A stretch of 53,907 bases of DNA from a virus, in the IMG/VR virus record IMGVR_UViG_3300032308_001079, positions 1 through 53,907 of that record; one strand, 5' to 3'. Positions 40,121-53,907 of the stretch are shown in pieces. The first letter of the stretch is position 1. Each line of letters begins with the position of its first letter. The position numbers and the translations under genes are program-made. Below the pieces are notes generated by a model. It saw nothing but the letters and a program-made list of their open reading frames with translations, ran no database searches and was not told where the DNA came from.

Positions 40121-42154
40121 ATGTTTTCTTTTAAGTTAGCCGAAGAGTTTGTTACACCATATAAGAGTTTAAAGGCTCCCTTCGGATATCAAGATGCCGC
40201 TGGTAATTCCGTTGGTGAAATAACTTTTCTTAGGACCTATTCACGACTTAAAGCAGATGGTACTAAAGAAACTTGGGTTGACGTTTGTGAGAGAGTAATC
40301 AACGGTATGTATTCTTTACAAAAAGACCACGCTAAAACAAACCGCTTACCTTGGTCAGATGCTAAAGCAGCCGCCTCAGCCAAAGAGGCTTTCGACCGTT
40401 TGTGGAACTTAAAGTGGACACCACCAGGTAGGGGTCTTTGGGTTATGGGTACTCCGCTTGTAAATGAAAAACGTAACTCAGCAGCCTTACAAAACTGTGC
40501 GTTTGTATCGACTGGCTCAATGACTAAGACCGATCCAGCAAAGCCTTTTGCGTTTTTAATGGAGGCTAGTATGCTTGGTGTTGGAGTTGGTTTCGACGAT
40601 AAGGGTGCCGACAAAGACTTTACGATTTACAAACCGCAAGAGGGGGAAATATATGTCATTCCAGATACCAGAGAAGGCTGGGTCGAGTCAACGGCCACGC
40701 TTATTAACTCTTACCTACGATCAGACTCAAAACGTCCTAGGTTCGATTATGCAGAAATTCGCAAGGCAGGCGAACCCATCAAGACATTTGGTGGAACAGC
40801 AGCAGGTCCAGAACCGCTCATTAAGTTACATAATTACATCGATGGAATCTTCAAAGAACGTGCTGGTGAGAAACTTACCCGCATTGATATTGCTGATATT
40901 GGGAACCTTATTGGGGTTTGTGTTGTATCTGGTAATGTTCGGCGGTCTGCTGAGTTACTTATTGGCAGAATTGATGATGAAGATTTTTTAAATTTAAAGA
41001 ACGCAGAAAAATTTCCAGAAAGAAACTCTTACGACCCAAGTAAACCAGGTTGGGCTTGGATGTCTAACAACTCTGTATCAGTAAATGTTGGGGACAATTT
41101 AGATAACATTATTGATGGAATTGCTCGTAATGGAGAGCCTGGAGTTGTCTGGATGGATATCTCAAAACAATACGGTCGTCTCATTGATCCAATTAATAAT
41201 AAGGATTGGCGCATTGCAGGATATAACCCTTGTGCAGAACAATCTCTCGAATCTTTTGAATGCTGTACCTTAGTAGAGACCTATCTAAACCGCCACGACG
41301 ATATGGAGGACTTTAAAAGAACTCTAAAATTTGCTTATCTATACGCTAAGACGGTTACCCTTATCCCTACACACTGGGAAGAAACAAACGCTATTATGCA
41401 AAGAAATCGGCGCATTGGAACTTCTGTTTCAGGAGTGGCTAACTTTGCAGATAGAAAAGGATTACCAATACTCCGTCAGTGGATGGATGAAGGATATAAA
41501 GTAATCAAAACCTACGACACCACCTACTCTGAGTGGCTTGGTATTCGTGAGTCAATCAAGATGACTACCGTAAAGCCAAGTGGAACAGTTAGCATCTTGG
41601 CAGGTGAATCACCTGGCGTTCATTGGACTGTAGGCGGAGAGTACTTTAATCGTGCTATTCGGTTTGCAAACTCTGATCCAATGTTGCCTTTGTTTAAGAT
41701 GGCTAACTACAGAGTAGAACCAGCAAGTGAATCTCCCAATACTACTTCTGTTGTATTTTTCCCAATCAAATCTAATGCTAGACGTTCTGAAAAAGACGTA
41801 AGCATTTACGAAAAGATGGCTCTTGCTGCAACTGCACAAAGGTATTGGTCAGACAACTCTGTAAGTGTGACTATTAGTTTTAATCCTGAGACCGAAGCCT
41901 CGGCTATTGGTACGGCTTTGCATATGTATGATGGTCAACTTAAAACCGTATCCTTCTTACCTTCTGGTAATGCTACCTATCCTCAAATGCCTTACACTCA
42001 AATCACTGCTGAAGAATATGAATCAGAAGGAACTATGAAATTATTTCCAATTGATTTGTCAGGAGTTTATGCTGGTATGGCTGCTGATGCTATTGGTGAG
42101 GCTTACTGTACAACCGATGCCTGCGAAGTTAGGCTAATTAAAGATAATCAATAG
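40121..42154 (+). CDS. nrdJ: Adenosylcobalamin-dependent ribonucleoside-triphosphate reductase (class II, monomeric)
   Basis: 677 residues. PPGRGLWVMGTPLVNEKRNS, QNCAFVSTGSM, VSGNVRRSAELLIG, GYNPCAEQSLESFECCTLVE (N-P-C-x-E-Q with radical Cys and Glu), RRIGTSVSGVANF and TVKPSGTVSILAGESPGVHW are hallmarks of RTPR. The length fits the monomeric class II enzymes. It makes dNTPs from NTPs without oxygen but needs B12, which the host must supply or make; a MoxR/CobT-like pair lies on the other strand. Last gene of the rightward block. Confidence 0.85.
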   Translation: MFSFKLAEEFVTPYKSLKAPFGYQDAAGNSVGEITFLRTYSRLKADGTKETWVDVCERVINGMYSLQKDHAKTNRLPWSDAKAAASAKEAFDRLWNLKWTPPGRGLWVMGTPLVNEKRNSAALQNCAFVSTGSMTKTDPAKPFAFLMEASMLGVGVGFDDKGADKDFTIYKPQEGEIYVIPDTREGWVESTATLINSYLRSDSKRPRFDYAEIRKAGEPIKTFGGTAAGPEPLIKLHNYIDGIFKERAGEKLTRIDIADIGNLIGVCVVSGNVRRSAELLIGRIDDEDFLNLKNAEKFPERNSYDPSKPGWAWMSNNSVSVNVGDNLDNIIDGIARNGEPGVVWMDISKQYGRLIDPINNKDWRIAGYNPCAEQSLESFECCTLVETYLNRHDDMEDFKRTLKFAYLYAKTVTLIPTHWEETNAIMQRNRRIGTSVSGVANFADRKGLPILRQWMDEGYKVIKTYDTTYSEWLGIRESIKMTTVKPSGTVSILAGESPGVHWTVGGEYFNRAIRFANSDPMLPLFKMANYRVEPASESPNTTSVVFFPIKSNARRSEKDVSIYEKMALAATAQRYWSDNSVSVTISFNPETEASAIGTALHMYDGQLKTVSFLPSGNATYPQMPYTQITAEEYESEGTMKLFPIDLSGVYAGMAADAIGEAYCTTDACEVRLIKDNQ

Positions 42155-43247: not shown

Positions 43248-44585
43248 TCACTCCAAATAGTCGTTGGCACTTTCAGATGCCTTTGACTGGTGTGAACGAA
43301 GGCGGTGTAAATACCGCTCTGTCGTCTTGATCGATTGGTGTCCTAATCGCTCTTTTACTTCATGGACATCTACGCCGTTCTTTAACAACTGCGTAGCGTT
43401 TGCATGTCGTAAATCATGAGTTCTAGGCAACCAGCCGATTGCGGACTTGGCTATTGCTTTGTTCCAAGTTGTTCTCCATACATCACGAGGCATGTGGCTC
43501 ATATTGTTGATAAAACTCCCTTGCTTGTGCTTCTGCTGATGCTTCTGCTTTGCCTTACGGCTTCGGCTTCTTACCTGCTCTGCTTCTGCTAGTGCTTCTG
43601 CTTGGGCTTTGGCTTTGCGGTAGTTTGCTACTGCTTGCCTACACCCTTCGCATCTACAACCCCCATGTGTATAGGAGTAAAGAGTTCCATGCTGGAACTG
43701 TTTTCCGCCTTTCTCGAATGGTCGAGAGGGCTTTGCGCTTCGTGAACCTTTAAGTTTACCTTCCGTTAAGAGTATTGTTCTTGGAAACATCAGATCATCT
43801 TTTGCTATGCCTTTTGCTAGGACATACGCATTTAACTGCTGTAATAGGGCTTTTCCTATTACTAGGCTTCTCTTATGCCCTGACTTGGTGGCATCTATCA
43901 CCATGAACCTAGTTCCATTGTTGTAATTTGTTCCTAGATCACTAACTCGCCTTTGAATAAAGATTTCGCCAGTTTTGAAATTAATGTCTTTTGCTCTTAC
44001 TTCCGTTGCTTCACCAAATCGGCAACCACTTGCTACTAAGAATTGGGCGAATAATTTAGTTCCTTGTGTCGGTAAATGCTTAATGATCTCCTTAAACTCA
44101 TCAGGGTCTAGGAGATTAGATATATTGGCATGATTGACCTTGATCTTAATTCCATGTGTCGGATTGCTCTCTAATTGACCAGCATTAACCAACTTTGAAA
44201 ACATTGAGCCAAGAGAAGCCTTCACCTGATTTAAGGTGGCAGGTCTAACTCCCGATAGTTTGAGATCATCAATTAACTTAACTAGGTCTGAAGGCTTCAG
44301 GGAAGTTAGTTCTCGATCTCCTATAACTGGAATTACAAATCTAGTTAAAACCGACTTATAGCCCTTCTTTGTGATCGGCATTAGATCAGCCACCGCCAGC
44401 CATTGATCTACAAAATCAACCACCCTTAAATTAGCCTTTGAGGGGGCTTTTAAGCCCTGCTTCTCGGCTTGTATGGCGTGATACATGGCTTCGGTTTCAT
44501 TAGCCCATGTGCCAGCCGATAAACGGCGATTTTGAAGCCTGTAATAGCCTGTAAATCTGCCGTTGCGCTTAATCACATACGCCAT
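43248..44585 (-). CDS. int: Tyrosine-family phage integrase with zinc-motif insertion
   Basis: 445 residues. N-terminal arm-binding region, core-binding helices (about 55-150), then the catalytic domain: VASGCRFGEATEVRAKDINF (Arg I), THDLRHANATQLLKNG (H-x-x-R), EVKERLGHQSIKTTERYLHR (H/W and Tyr nucleophile). Between the FPRTIL strand and the DVWRTTWNKA helix an extra stretch of about 80 residues carries HGTLYSYTHGGCRCEGCRQA, a CxCxxC motif widespread in actinophage proteins, and then a Lys/Gln/Ala repeat made by the period-6 DNA repeat. It should catalyse integration and, with an excisionase, excision. Confidence 0.9.
   Translation of the reverse strand: MAYVIKRNGRFTGYYRLQNRRLSAGTWANETEAMYHAIQAEKQGLKAPSKANLRVVDFVDQWLAVADLMPITKKGYKSVLTRFVIPVIGDRELTSLKPSDLVKLIDDLKLSGVRPATLNQVKASLGSMFSKLVNAGQLESNPTHGIKIKVNHANISNLLDPDEFKEIIKHLPTQGTKLFAQFLVASGCRFGEATEVRAKDINFKTGEIFIQRRVSDLGTNYNNGTRFMVIDATKSGHKRSLVIGKALLQQLNAYVLAKGIAKDDLMFPRTILLTEGKLKGSRSAKPSRPFEKGGKQFQHGTLYSYTHGGCRCEGCRQAVANYRKAKAQAEALAEAEQVRSRSRKAKQKHQQKHKQGSFINNMSHMPRDVWRTTWNKAIAKSAIGWLPRTHDLRHANATQLLKNGVDVHEVKERLGHQSIKTTERYLHRLRSHQSKASESANDYLE
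43521..43640. repeat. Period-6 GCTNNT repeat inside the integrase insertion
   Basis: The longest copy, encoding YRKAKAQAEALAEAEQVRSR and SRKAKQKHQQKHKQG of the integrase. Units such as GCTTCTGCTGATGCTTCTGC are near-identical to those at 42588-42658. Confidence 0.7.
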
Positions 44586-44649: not shown

Positions 44650-44735
44650 TTCTTAATCAAAAGATAAGCCCCTAATCCAAATCGGACTAAGGGCTGAACT
44701 ATTGGCTACATAGGGAATTAGGCGGTCAGGCTTGG

Positions 44736-46387: not shown

Positions 46388-46584
46388 TGGCTCTCCTTTG
46401 TAGTAAATAGTTCGTTCAAGTGATCGTATTGAGGTAATCCATTGTTATTTTGATGCCCAGTATCATCACCGCAATCAACGCATTGACCTAATACTGGAAC
46501 TTTACAACCGCACTCACAATTACATTCAGGCTCGGTGTTAAACACTTCATCAAATAAACTTTCATCAAGTAAATCATCAGCCAT
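46384..46584 (-). CDS. Small acidic zinc-binding-type protein
   Basis: 66 residues with an acidic start (ADDLLDESLFDEVFNTEPE) and a dense cysteine cluster CNCECGCKVPVLGQCVDCGD. The cysteines would suit one zinc ribbon. Start overlaps the end of the sigma-like gene. Confidence 0.5.
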   Translation of the reverse strand: MADDLLDESLFDEVFNTEPECNCECGCKVPVLGQCVDCGDDTGHQNNNGLPQYDHLNELFTTKESQ

Positions 46585-46735
46585 TTTTATTCTCCCTTAA
46601 TTGATTTAGATATTCCGTTTCTATCTTTCTAATCTGTATTCTTGAAGTTCCAAACATACGAGCAACTTCGGATAAAGATTTTTGATACGCAATTCTTTGG
46701 TGAACTATCTTTTTCTTTTCATTTTCATTAAACAT
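46577..46735 (-). CDS. Mini sigma-70-region-4-like helix-turn-helix protein
   Basis: 52 residues: KKIVHQRIAYQKSLSEVARM, FGTSRIQIRKIETEYLNQLR. The S-L-x-E-V-A-x-x-F-G-x-S-R-x-x-I-R-x-I-E-x-x-x-L-x-x-L-R sequence closely follows sigma-70 region 4 (the -35 recognition helix-turn-helix). There is nothing else of a sigma factor, so it may act as an anti-sigma, co-activator or repressor. GGAGTAAGTA is its ribosome-binding site, which lies in a hairpin following a structured leader (46759-46898). Confidence 0.6.
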   Translation of the reverse strand: MFNENEKKKIVHQRIAYQKSLSEVARMFGTSRIQIRKIETEYLNQLRENKNG

Positions 46736-46740
46736 TACTT

Positions 46741-46760
46741 ACTCCAATTCTATTAGGAGT
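46741..46760 (-). promoter_or_regulatory. Ribosome-binding-site sequestering hairpin
   Basis: On the minus strand ACTCC (46760-46756), ten-base loop, GGAGT (46745-46741). GGAG is the ribosome-binding site of the sigma-like gene, 5 bases before ATG 46735. The 5' arm shares two bases with the closing stem of the upstream structured RNA, so the two could compete. Confidence 0.55.
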
Positions 46761-46898
46761 TGAGTAGGCGCAGATACGGCTCGTTTTATTATCCAAAGCA
46801 AATTAAGGAAATAAAAGTCTTGACCGCCCTTCACAAGTGAAAGGAGTGGGGAATGAAAACAAAACCCCAGTAAGGTCTTGTGTTAACGCCTACCCAAC
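46759..46898 (-). ncRNA. Predicted structured leader RNA (riboswitch or attenuator candidate)
   Basis: Minus strand, 140 bases without an ORF. Closing stem GTTGGGTAGGCG (46898-46887) with CGCCTACTCAAC (46770-46759), 12 pairs including one G-U. Inside: GACC/GGTC enclosing TGGGG/CCCCA and CCTTTCA/TGAAGGG (one G-U), and a TTATTTCC/GGATAATAA hairpin. Both imperfect positions are G-U on the minus strand but A-C mismatches on the plus strand, which points to minus-strand RNA. It ends next to the hairpin that hides the ribosome-binding site of the downstream gene. Confidence 0.6.
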
Positions 46899-46907
46899 AA
46901 TTTTAAG

Positions 46908-47084
46908 TTAGCGAGAAAGTAATCTCTTTTGTGTTTCTACGCAGTTATAGCAAAACCAAAGAATGTCCTGAGAATAGTTATCAGTAATTGTTTTGCCATT
47001 ATTGCGAACGCCTTGCTGACCGCATTGATCACATAAATCTAATTCGTGATCTTGAACTTGTCTAACAATTTCTACATAACCCAT
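46908..47084 (-). CDS. Small zinc-ribbon protein, 58 residues
   Basis: ATG 47084 to TAA 46908-46910. LCDQCGQQGVRNNG near the start and FCYNCVETQKRLL near the end are the two knuckles of a zinc ribbon, separated by about 24 residues. The ATG directly follows the upstream stop (TAAATG). Function unknown. Confidence 0.55.
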   Translation of the reverse strand: MGYVEIVRQVQDHELDLCDQCGQQGVRNNGKTITDNYSQDILWFCYNCVETQKRLLSR

Positions 47085-53840: not shown

Positions 53841-53907
53841 GCGGATGTAGCGCAATTGGTAGCGCACCACCTTGCCAAGGTGGATGTTGCGAGTTCGAGT
53901 CTCGTCA
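53841..53907 (+). tRNA. tRNA-Gly(GCC), 3' end cut by the window
   Basis: 67 bases fold as a tRNA: acceptor arm GCGGATG, D-arm GCGC/GCGC, anticodon stem CCACC/GGTGG with loop TTGCCAA (anticodon GCC), T-arm GCGAG-TTCGAGT-CTCGT, and the first two bases (CA) of the 3' acceptor strand. Five acceptor bases, discriminator and any CCA are beyond the window. It may be phage-encoded. It lies 9 kb from the integrase and its 3' end points away, so it is not obviously the attachment site. Confidence 0.85.

Follow-up and report, generated by a model that had tools for sequence, protein, structure and literature searches.

A new family of structured RNA is encoded on the minus strand, at positions 46759-46900, of a 53,907-base virus record from IMG/VR (the window, meaning the whole stretch of DNA that was analysed). 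The RNA is intergenic and about 140 letters long, and its three-armed fold is kept across related viruses though the letters vary. The arms are the closing helix P1, the helix P2 tipped by the hairpin P3, and the helix P5 with P6 beyond it; the junction and an internal loop are conserved. An earlier note, made from the sequence of the window alone, had described a structured leader here, and the domain proves to be larger than the one it saw (Table 1).

Table 1. Features of the RNA and its surroundings in the window; RNA letters are those of the minus strand.
Feature	Position	Strand	Basis or remark
Whole conserved three-way-junction RNA domain, including the invariant UU preceding P1	46759..46900	-	covariation, relatives
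P1 5' arm GUUGGGUAGGCG	46887..46898	-	pairs with 46759-46770
P1 3' arm CGCCUACUCAAC	46759..46770	-	pairs with 46887-46898
P2 5' arm CACAAG	46877..46882	-	pairs with 46832-46837
P2 3' arm CUUGUG (DNA CTTGTG)	46832..46837	-	pairs with 46877-46882
P3 hairpin GGGG...UUCAUU-CCCC, tip of the P2 arm	46848..46868	-	
CUCCUU in the P2-P3 linker	46841..46846	-	
P5 5' arm AGGGCGGU (DNA AGGGCGGT)	46823..46830	-	pairs with 46772-46780
P5 3' arm GCCGU-A-UCU (DNA GCCGT-A-TCT), bulged A 46775	46772..46780	-	
P6, variable stem-loop beyond the conserved UCAAGA/CGAG internal loop	46784..46816	-	
ACUCC/GGAGU hairpin over the ribosome-binding site	46741..46760	-	2 nt shared with P1
58-aa protein, read as zinc-finger-like	46908..47084	-	stop codon 7 nt before the RNA
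52-aa HTH protein, sigma-70 region 4-like	46577..46735	-	Pfam PF04545, 1.8e-6
Intrinsic terminator separating the gene row from the integrase	44667..44695	-	terminator scan
Integrase	43248-44585	-	

The RNA lies in a row of genes on the minus strand of the window (52008-42646). The products of the row include an HNH endonuclease (PHROG match), a WhiB protein (Pfam, 4.2e-18), small proteins, the 52-aa HTH protein, an AlpA/excisionase-like protein, the integrase and a lysozyme-like protein, as well as, to judge from their sequences, an AAA ATPase and a VWA protein. The sigma-70 region 4 sequence that had been read in the 52-residue protein is confirmed by Pfam (Sigma70_r4, 27.8 bits against a cut-off of 24.1). 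The 58-aa protein on the other side of the RNA appears zinc-finger-like on a reading of its Cys pairs, and no Pfam family scored above its cut-off. The virus is regarded as an actinophage because of the WhiB protein in the row, and the gene points to an actinobacterial host. A whiB gene and a sigma-70 gene also occur in isolated ‘Ca. Nanopelagicales’ phages, according to the available part of the report describing them (PMC10202952). Elsewhere in the window, a ribonucleotide reductase (40121-42154, plus strand) is about 78% identical to the enzymes of phage DSL-LC01 (Dishui Lake) and of the phage of record L050, with the next named phages after DSL-LC01 at 57%, and a tRNA gene (53841-53907, plus strand) with an anticodon that is apparently GCC (Gly, read by eye) is truncated by the right end of the record.

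Beside the window, the RNA was found in 37 IMG/VR records, in two of which it is truncated at the contig end, and there are 23 distinct complete sequences. The 23 contigs obtained through the 52-aa protein all carry it, one of them cut by the contig end; L037, L042, L050 and L058 were added by pattern scans, and ten further records through the neighbour genes. A model built only from 14 nearer sequences (R1, from alignment A2) matched ten divergent records with E values from 2.4e-24 to 3e-12 and the 5'-cut copy of L050 with 5e-4, all of them outside its training set. Run on 12 whole records, R1 gave a single match in 11, and none in that of L050 in that search mode. Model R2, trained with the divergent copies, matched nothing at E ≤ 1 when run on 811,655 bases from 99 viral loci that had been fetched by a chance pattern. 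A looser DNA pattern returned at least 119 stretches, and the 99 new loci look like chance matches in protein-coding sequence and have no model match; further genuine copies may lie beyond the stretches listed. Judged from their sequences, six matches of a genome scan in unrelated taxa were due to chance as well, and eight pattern matches (L049, L051-L057) were dropped on the same grounds. When the region, or the RNA of two relatives, was compared with named phages by BLAST, only short chance-level matches appeared, and the neighbour proteins gave no match; there was none to plasmids (BLAST of one relative) and none of the RNA models to phages DSL-LC01 and Gaia. The RNA models found no match in the zinc-finger relatives L200 and L202-L208 or in the fragments L212, L220 and L242; L206-L208 look like other phages.

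Covariation was counted on two alignments from which near copies were left out, the partial L023/L065 copy being in neither. A6 is a MAFFT alignment of 19 of the 23 distinct complete sequences and was not fitted to the structure; A7 is model-fitted and has 21 rows, namely 20 of the 23 and the L050 fragment. Two-sided changes are seen on A6 in 24 of the 37 pairs and in 79 cells, and 90.1% of the cells pair. In shuffles, two-sided changes number 13.4 pairs and 21.9 cells, and in slid controls 8-13 pairs and 14-23 cells. On A7, an alignment that leans to the structure, the counts are 28 of 41 pairs and 106 cells. The number of further pair types is the weakest measure, being reached by 5 of 500 shuffles on A6 and by 97 of 500 on the nearer set A2. 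The comparison of relatives that the earlier note had proposed as a check finds the pairing of the revised fold kept. Another of its proposals, a search of Rfam, gave no match over the RNA (release 15, gathering cut-off; the window and 11 divergent loci), which together with the covariation bears out its view of a structured RNA of no known class.

A description of this RNA in the literature was not found among the matches listed, and the portion of the 104-motif paper that was available names no such motif (PMC2864571). The same portion describes the manA and wcaG motifs, metagenomic structured RNAs of cyanophages that both have an Rfam number. Like the present RNA, these are orphan structured RNA families found in environmental phage DNA by comparative analysis; as far as that portion describes them, they differ in their hosts and gene neighbours, whereas here a three-way junction stands in a gene row leading to an integrase. 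The Rfam searches of the present RNA gave no match to either motif.

Each helix has its own record of change. In P1, 7 of the 12 pairs have two-sided changes and 99.1% of the cells are paired (A6), so the 12-pair closing stem drawn earlier, including its G-U pair, stands. P2 has two-sided changes in 5 of 6 pairs with 95.6% of its cells paired, and P3, which is lacking in L241, in 3 of 4 pairs with 80.6% (both on A6). P5 is paired in 100% of its cells, with two pairs changed on both sides (A7); its AGRG/YCU portion varies consistently, and its inner portion reads CGGU/GCCG, CGAU/GUCG, CAUU/GAUG or CAAC/GUUG according to lineage. P6 has two-sided changes in 11 of 11 pairs on the model-fitted A7 and about 76% of its cells paired on A6, and the A-T-rich third arm previously placed there (46807-46816 with 46784-46794) holds. 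RNAalifold, predicting freely, recovers P1, P2 and P5, with AGRG paired to YCU around the bulged A; P3 and P6 are absent from its prediction. The near-invariant letters are UNAA at the P1/P2 junction, AAGRGC, the UCA..A/AG internal loop and GUAYCUG.

The strand on which selection acts can be told from the imperfect pairs. G-U cells outnumber A-C cells by 54 to 5 on A6 (38 to 1 in P1, P2 and inner P5 alone) and by 90 to 4 on A7, so it is the RNA of the gene-sense (minus) strand that is selected, as had been proposed from the G-U pairs of the single sequence.

The P2-P3 linker carries CUCCUU in 19 of the 23 distinct copies when the rows are read by eye; a mechanical count gives 20 copies, one of the occurrences lying in P6 of L201. 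We take the motif to resemble the 16S anti-Shine-Dalgarno sequence, and pairing with AAGGG (46827-46831) is conceivable, as is pairing with ribosome sites, including in trans. A candidate pseudoknot of CCUU/AAGG with P2 is unchanged in most copies and absent in L201; it competes with P5, and P5 covaries. A kink-turn at GGUCAAGAC/CGAGCC of the window was dropped, its GA pairs being broken in the relatives L236 and L199.

Two hairpins of the earlier drawing fared less well. Relatives do not retain the first (ACAAGACC/GGTTTTGT, 46859-46881), which on A6 is paired in 58.5% of its cells and has gaps at 4 of its 8 pairs in 15 of 19 rows. What survives of the second, CCTTTCA/TGAAGGG, is chiefly its outer CCTT/AAGG; it is largely replaced by P2 and P5, the helices that had been missed. 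Both hairpins compete with the covarying P2, P3 (GGGG/CCCC) and P5. They were reasonable from one sequence, because enforcing P1, P2 and P5 in the window costs only 1.4 kcal/mol over the minimum free energy (MFE) structure, which contains both of them. The earlier model as a whole has 17 two-sided pairs on A6, and it beats shuffles there in cells paired and in covariation score because 14 of the 17 lie in stems shared with the revised model. As a separate matter, the first hairpin scores terminator-like on the minus strand in a scan of the window, and most relatives are without it.

The domain of the window is more stable than expected by chance, with z -4.41 and none of 200 shuffles equal to it, and so is a longer piece of the window (z -2.73, 1 of 200). 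When P1, P2 and P5 are enforced in 20 copies, 9 lie within 0.3 kcal/mol of the MFE and 11 lie 1.3-11.2 kcal/mol above it, and 7 of the 20 MFE structures contain the full P2 and at least 7 of the 8 P5 pairs. The enforced set was limited to these three helices, the P3 and P6 pairs of the model alignment being probably misaligned in part. An argument that the fold requires a partner was withdrawn, since its energy gap had been overstated by enforcing P3 and P6. Taken over the 20 copies, computed stability therefore neither demands nor excludes the covarying fold.

The position of the RNA among the genes is constant at one end. When ORFs of at least 45 aa are called mechanically, an upstream stop codon lies 2-10 nt before the RNA begins in each of the distinct complete copies (23 of 23, the ORF counted in L244 being doubtful), and the upstream gene in most is a zinc-finger-like or HNH gene. 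With a stop codon this near and outer P1 pairs that covary, the transcript must begin upstream of the RNA, so that the term leader becomes doubtful; the RNA looks intercistronic. A promoter just before P1, where a TAANNT-like box is common by eye, was rejected because the covarying outer P1 pairs must be transcribed, and no promoter was recognised at the RNA in the window.

The other end varies more. The coupling to the sigma-like gene that had been claimed holds insofar as this is the usual next gene: the HTH gene starts 24-28 positions past P1 in the window group, L058, L236, L199, L246 and L243. It does not hold in L244/L245, L201 or L050. A 72-aa ORF comes next in L244/L245, followed by the HTH gene, and in L201 the next gene is a DUF1281_C gene, the best HTH match in that 5.4-kb locus having an E value of only 0.05. 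In L238, L240 and L241 the RNA is separated from the likely start of the HTH gene (the starts being in part inferred) by about 96-170 nt that contain further inverted repeats. One of these, in L241 (345-440), has 15 pairs (TTGGTAGGTGTAACC...GGTTACGCCTACCAA), and another, in L238, is near-perfect by eye (AATTGGTAGAGATCATCG...CGATGACCTCTATCAATT); the repeats past the RNA in L238 and L240 (after 2447/2445) and in L241 are perhaps a second structured RNA. The end of the upstream ORF and the 3' linker of the RNA look duplicated in L244 (1980-2470).

Compared with the window, seven lineages have RNA identities of 54-80%, HTH protein identities of 29-54% and 105-aa protein identities of 48-68%, nucleotides and amino acids not being compared like for like. 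The identity of the RNA is not tied to the protein that comes after it. Neither the RNA nor the HTH gene is present in L200 or L202-L205 (L203 and L205 known through searches alone); the zinc-finger and 105-aa genes directly adjoin in L202 and L204, and L203 and L205 look like near copies.

L050 is a single 23.3-kb record, largely colinear with the window at 17254-42154, in which the RNA is cut at the contig end and lacks its 5' half. A strong terminator follows the conserved CUG at a distance of at most about 15 nt, and beyond it lies a reductase gene in convergent orientation. The ORFs listed there on the strand of the RNA are all small and run antisense to this reductase gene. Since the RNA and the terminator directly follow the reductase gene, the RNA ends its gene row there. 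Among the window proteins encoded between the reductase and the RNA, only WhiB has a match in L050, weak and elsewhere in the record.

The reading placed first, though held tentatively, is that of an orphan RNA of mostly temperate actinophages that acts as an RNA of its own with a specific partner. It would have a function of its own rather than serve the sigma-like gene as a leader. A stable RNA would most likely arise from a polycistronic transcript, by cleavage or by termination within it, and its near-invariant nucleotides would be the contact for a single specific partner, which may be a protein of host or phage or else a small molecule. This is consistent with two-sided changes in excess of both controls, with an RNA that stays while its neighbours change (downstream in L244/L245 and L201, upstream where the gene is zinc-finger-like or HNH) and with L050, the best case of a free RNA. 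Against it, the RNA elsewhere keeps one slot, on the same strand, ahead of the same gene module, as would be expected of a cis element; it is lost together with the HTH gene, no promoter was recognised, and the covarying helices carry an energy cost in 11 of 20 copies.

Control in cis between cistrons, ranked close behind and itself a real possibility, is close to the idea of the earlier note: the junction RNA would bind a ligand or protein and alter access to the ribosome site, whatever gene follows. The RNA usually occurs where the HTH gene occurs and is lacking where it is lacking, and a Shine-Dalgarno-type GGA lies 12-17 nt after P1 in 19 of the 22 leaders read, with the start codon at the distance given above in the lineages read. 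The bases just past P1 can also pair with the ribosome site. The best helix over the site in 11 lineages averages 9.45, against 6.8 at 90 control ribosome sites, and reaches 8 or more in 10 of the 11 against 39% of the controls, whose stretches are slightly shorter than some leaders, favouring the leaders. The copy of the linker that precedes the HTH gene in L244, away from the RNA, reads UAC where the other copy reads UCC. The same score is, however, only modestly above that of linker shuffles (8.13, with 85 of 2000 reaching it); summed over all 17 leaders it is reached by 0 of 2000 shuffles, near copies being counted many times. The ACTCC/GGAGT hairpin itself is stable in the window, where it folds alone at -6.1 kcal/mol and is equalled by 3 of 200 shuffles, but it is weak elsewhere, for in seven other leaders folded alone the site is paired in 5 of 7 MFE structures and all seven energies are near those of their shuffles. 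The distant starts in L238/L240/L241, the terminator in L050 and a linker CUCC that does not track ribosome-site changes within the window group also speak against it. No alternative pairing that frees or hides the ribosome site was found. A mutually exclusive switch was not found, the overlap of the hairpin with P1 being two bases only; the hairpin is possibly a local feature and not an established switch.

In translational riboswitches with a junction aptamer, a closing stem and conserved junction letters are followed by the ribosome site a few bases on. The present RNA is alike in its closing stem, its junction letters and the nearby ribosome site, and it has a structured, aptamer-like domain. 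It differs in that the next gene varies, no conserved exclusive pairing was found and one copy has a terminator; a riboswitch always stands upstream of the gene it regulates, and the 5'-cut copy of L050 is followed by that terminator and a convergent gene.

An element for mRNA processing or stability, such as a nuclease site, a protector of the 3' end of the upstream cistrons or a self-cleaving ribozyme, is an improbable alternative. It would fit an RNA that follows the upstream stop so closely, nearer than to the next start, and it explains L050 too, but a plain hairpin needs no conserved junction or loop letters and no Rfam ribozyme matches over the RNA.

Processive antitermination of the kind known from HK022 put or EAR, in which the nascent RNA would stay on the polymerase and let it pass the terminator before the integrase, is less probable again. 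One strong terminator is found downstream of the RNA in 14 of the 16 loci scanned and in the window, close before the integrase ORF where the locus includes it (in L037 at a looser threshold, in L012 none). The records mostly hold one sense-strand match to the RNA (11 of 12), and an integrase was found in 13 of the 14 RNA-bearing records. The RNA-less L200, L204 and L205, however, keep a terminator at the same place (looser threshold; none in L202 and L203), so the terminator may simply end the gene row, and read-through in L050 would give only antisense to the reductase gene. Directly after the RNA there is no terminator in the 16 loci scanned, L050 being the sole record with one. HK022 put, as the available part of its source describes it (PMC9378689), is likewise a phage RNA from a row of early genes and functions as RNA; it differs in acting directly on RNA polymerase, while some RNA-less relatives here keep the integrase terminator. 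Chance folding of conserved phage DNA, with no functional RNA at all, has almost nothing left to recommend it, for although near relatives are highly conserved, conserved sequence alone can look structured and many copies have MFE structures without P2 or P5, it is contradicted by the covariation and its margin over the shuffled and slid controls.

Temperate actinophages have other noncoding RNAs. The RNA-based prophage origins of mycobacteriophages, according to the available part of the paper on them (PMC7157519), belong to phages that lack integrases and have parABS, unlike the records here, nearly all of which have an integrase.

RNA families as well supported as this one, with two-sided changes and a near-invariant core, usually imply a specific binding or catalytic job. 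The structure, the near-invariant letters, the RNA-less relatives and the terminator-bearing copy make the function of this RNA directly testable. The gene row that carries it leads to WhiB, an excisionase-like gene and the integrase, and one could imagine, as a suggestion rather unlikely for now, that it represents a new class of partner-sensing RNA in temperate actinophages, which may play a role in the lysogeny decision or in the takeover of host transcription or translation.
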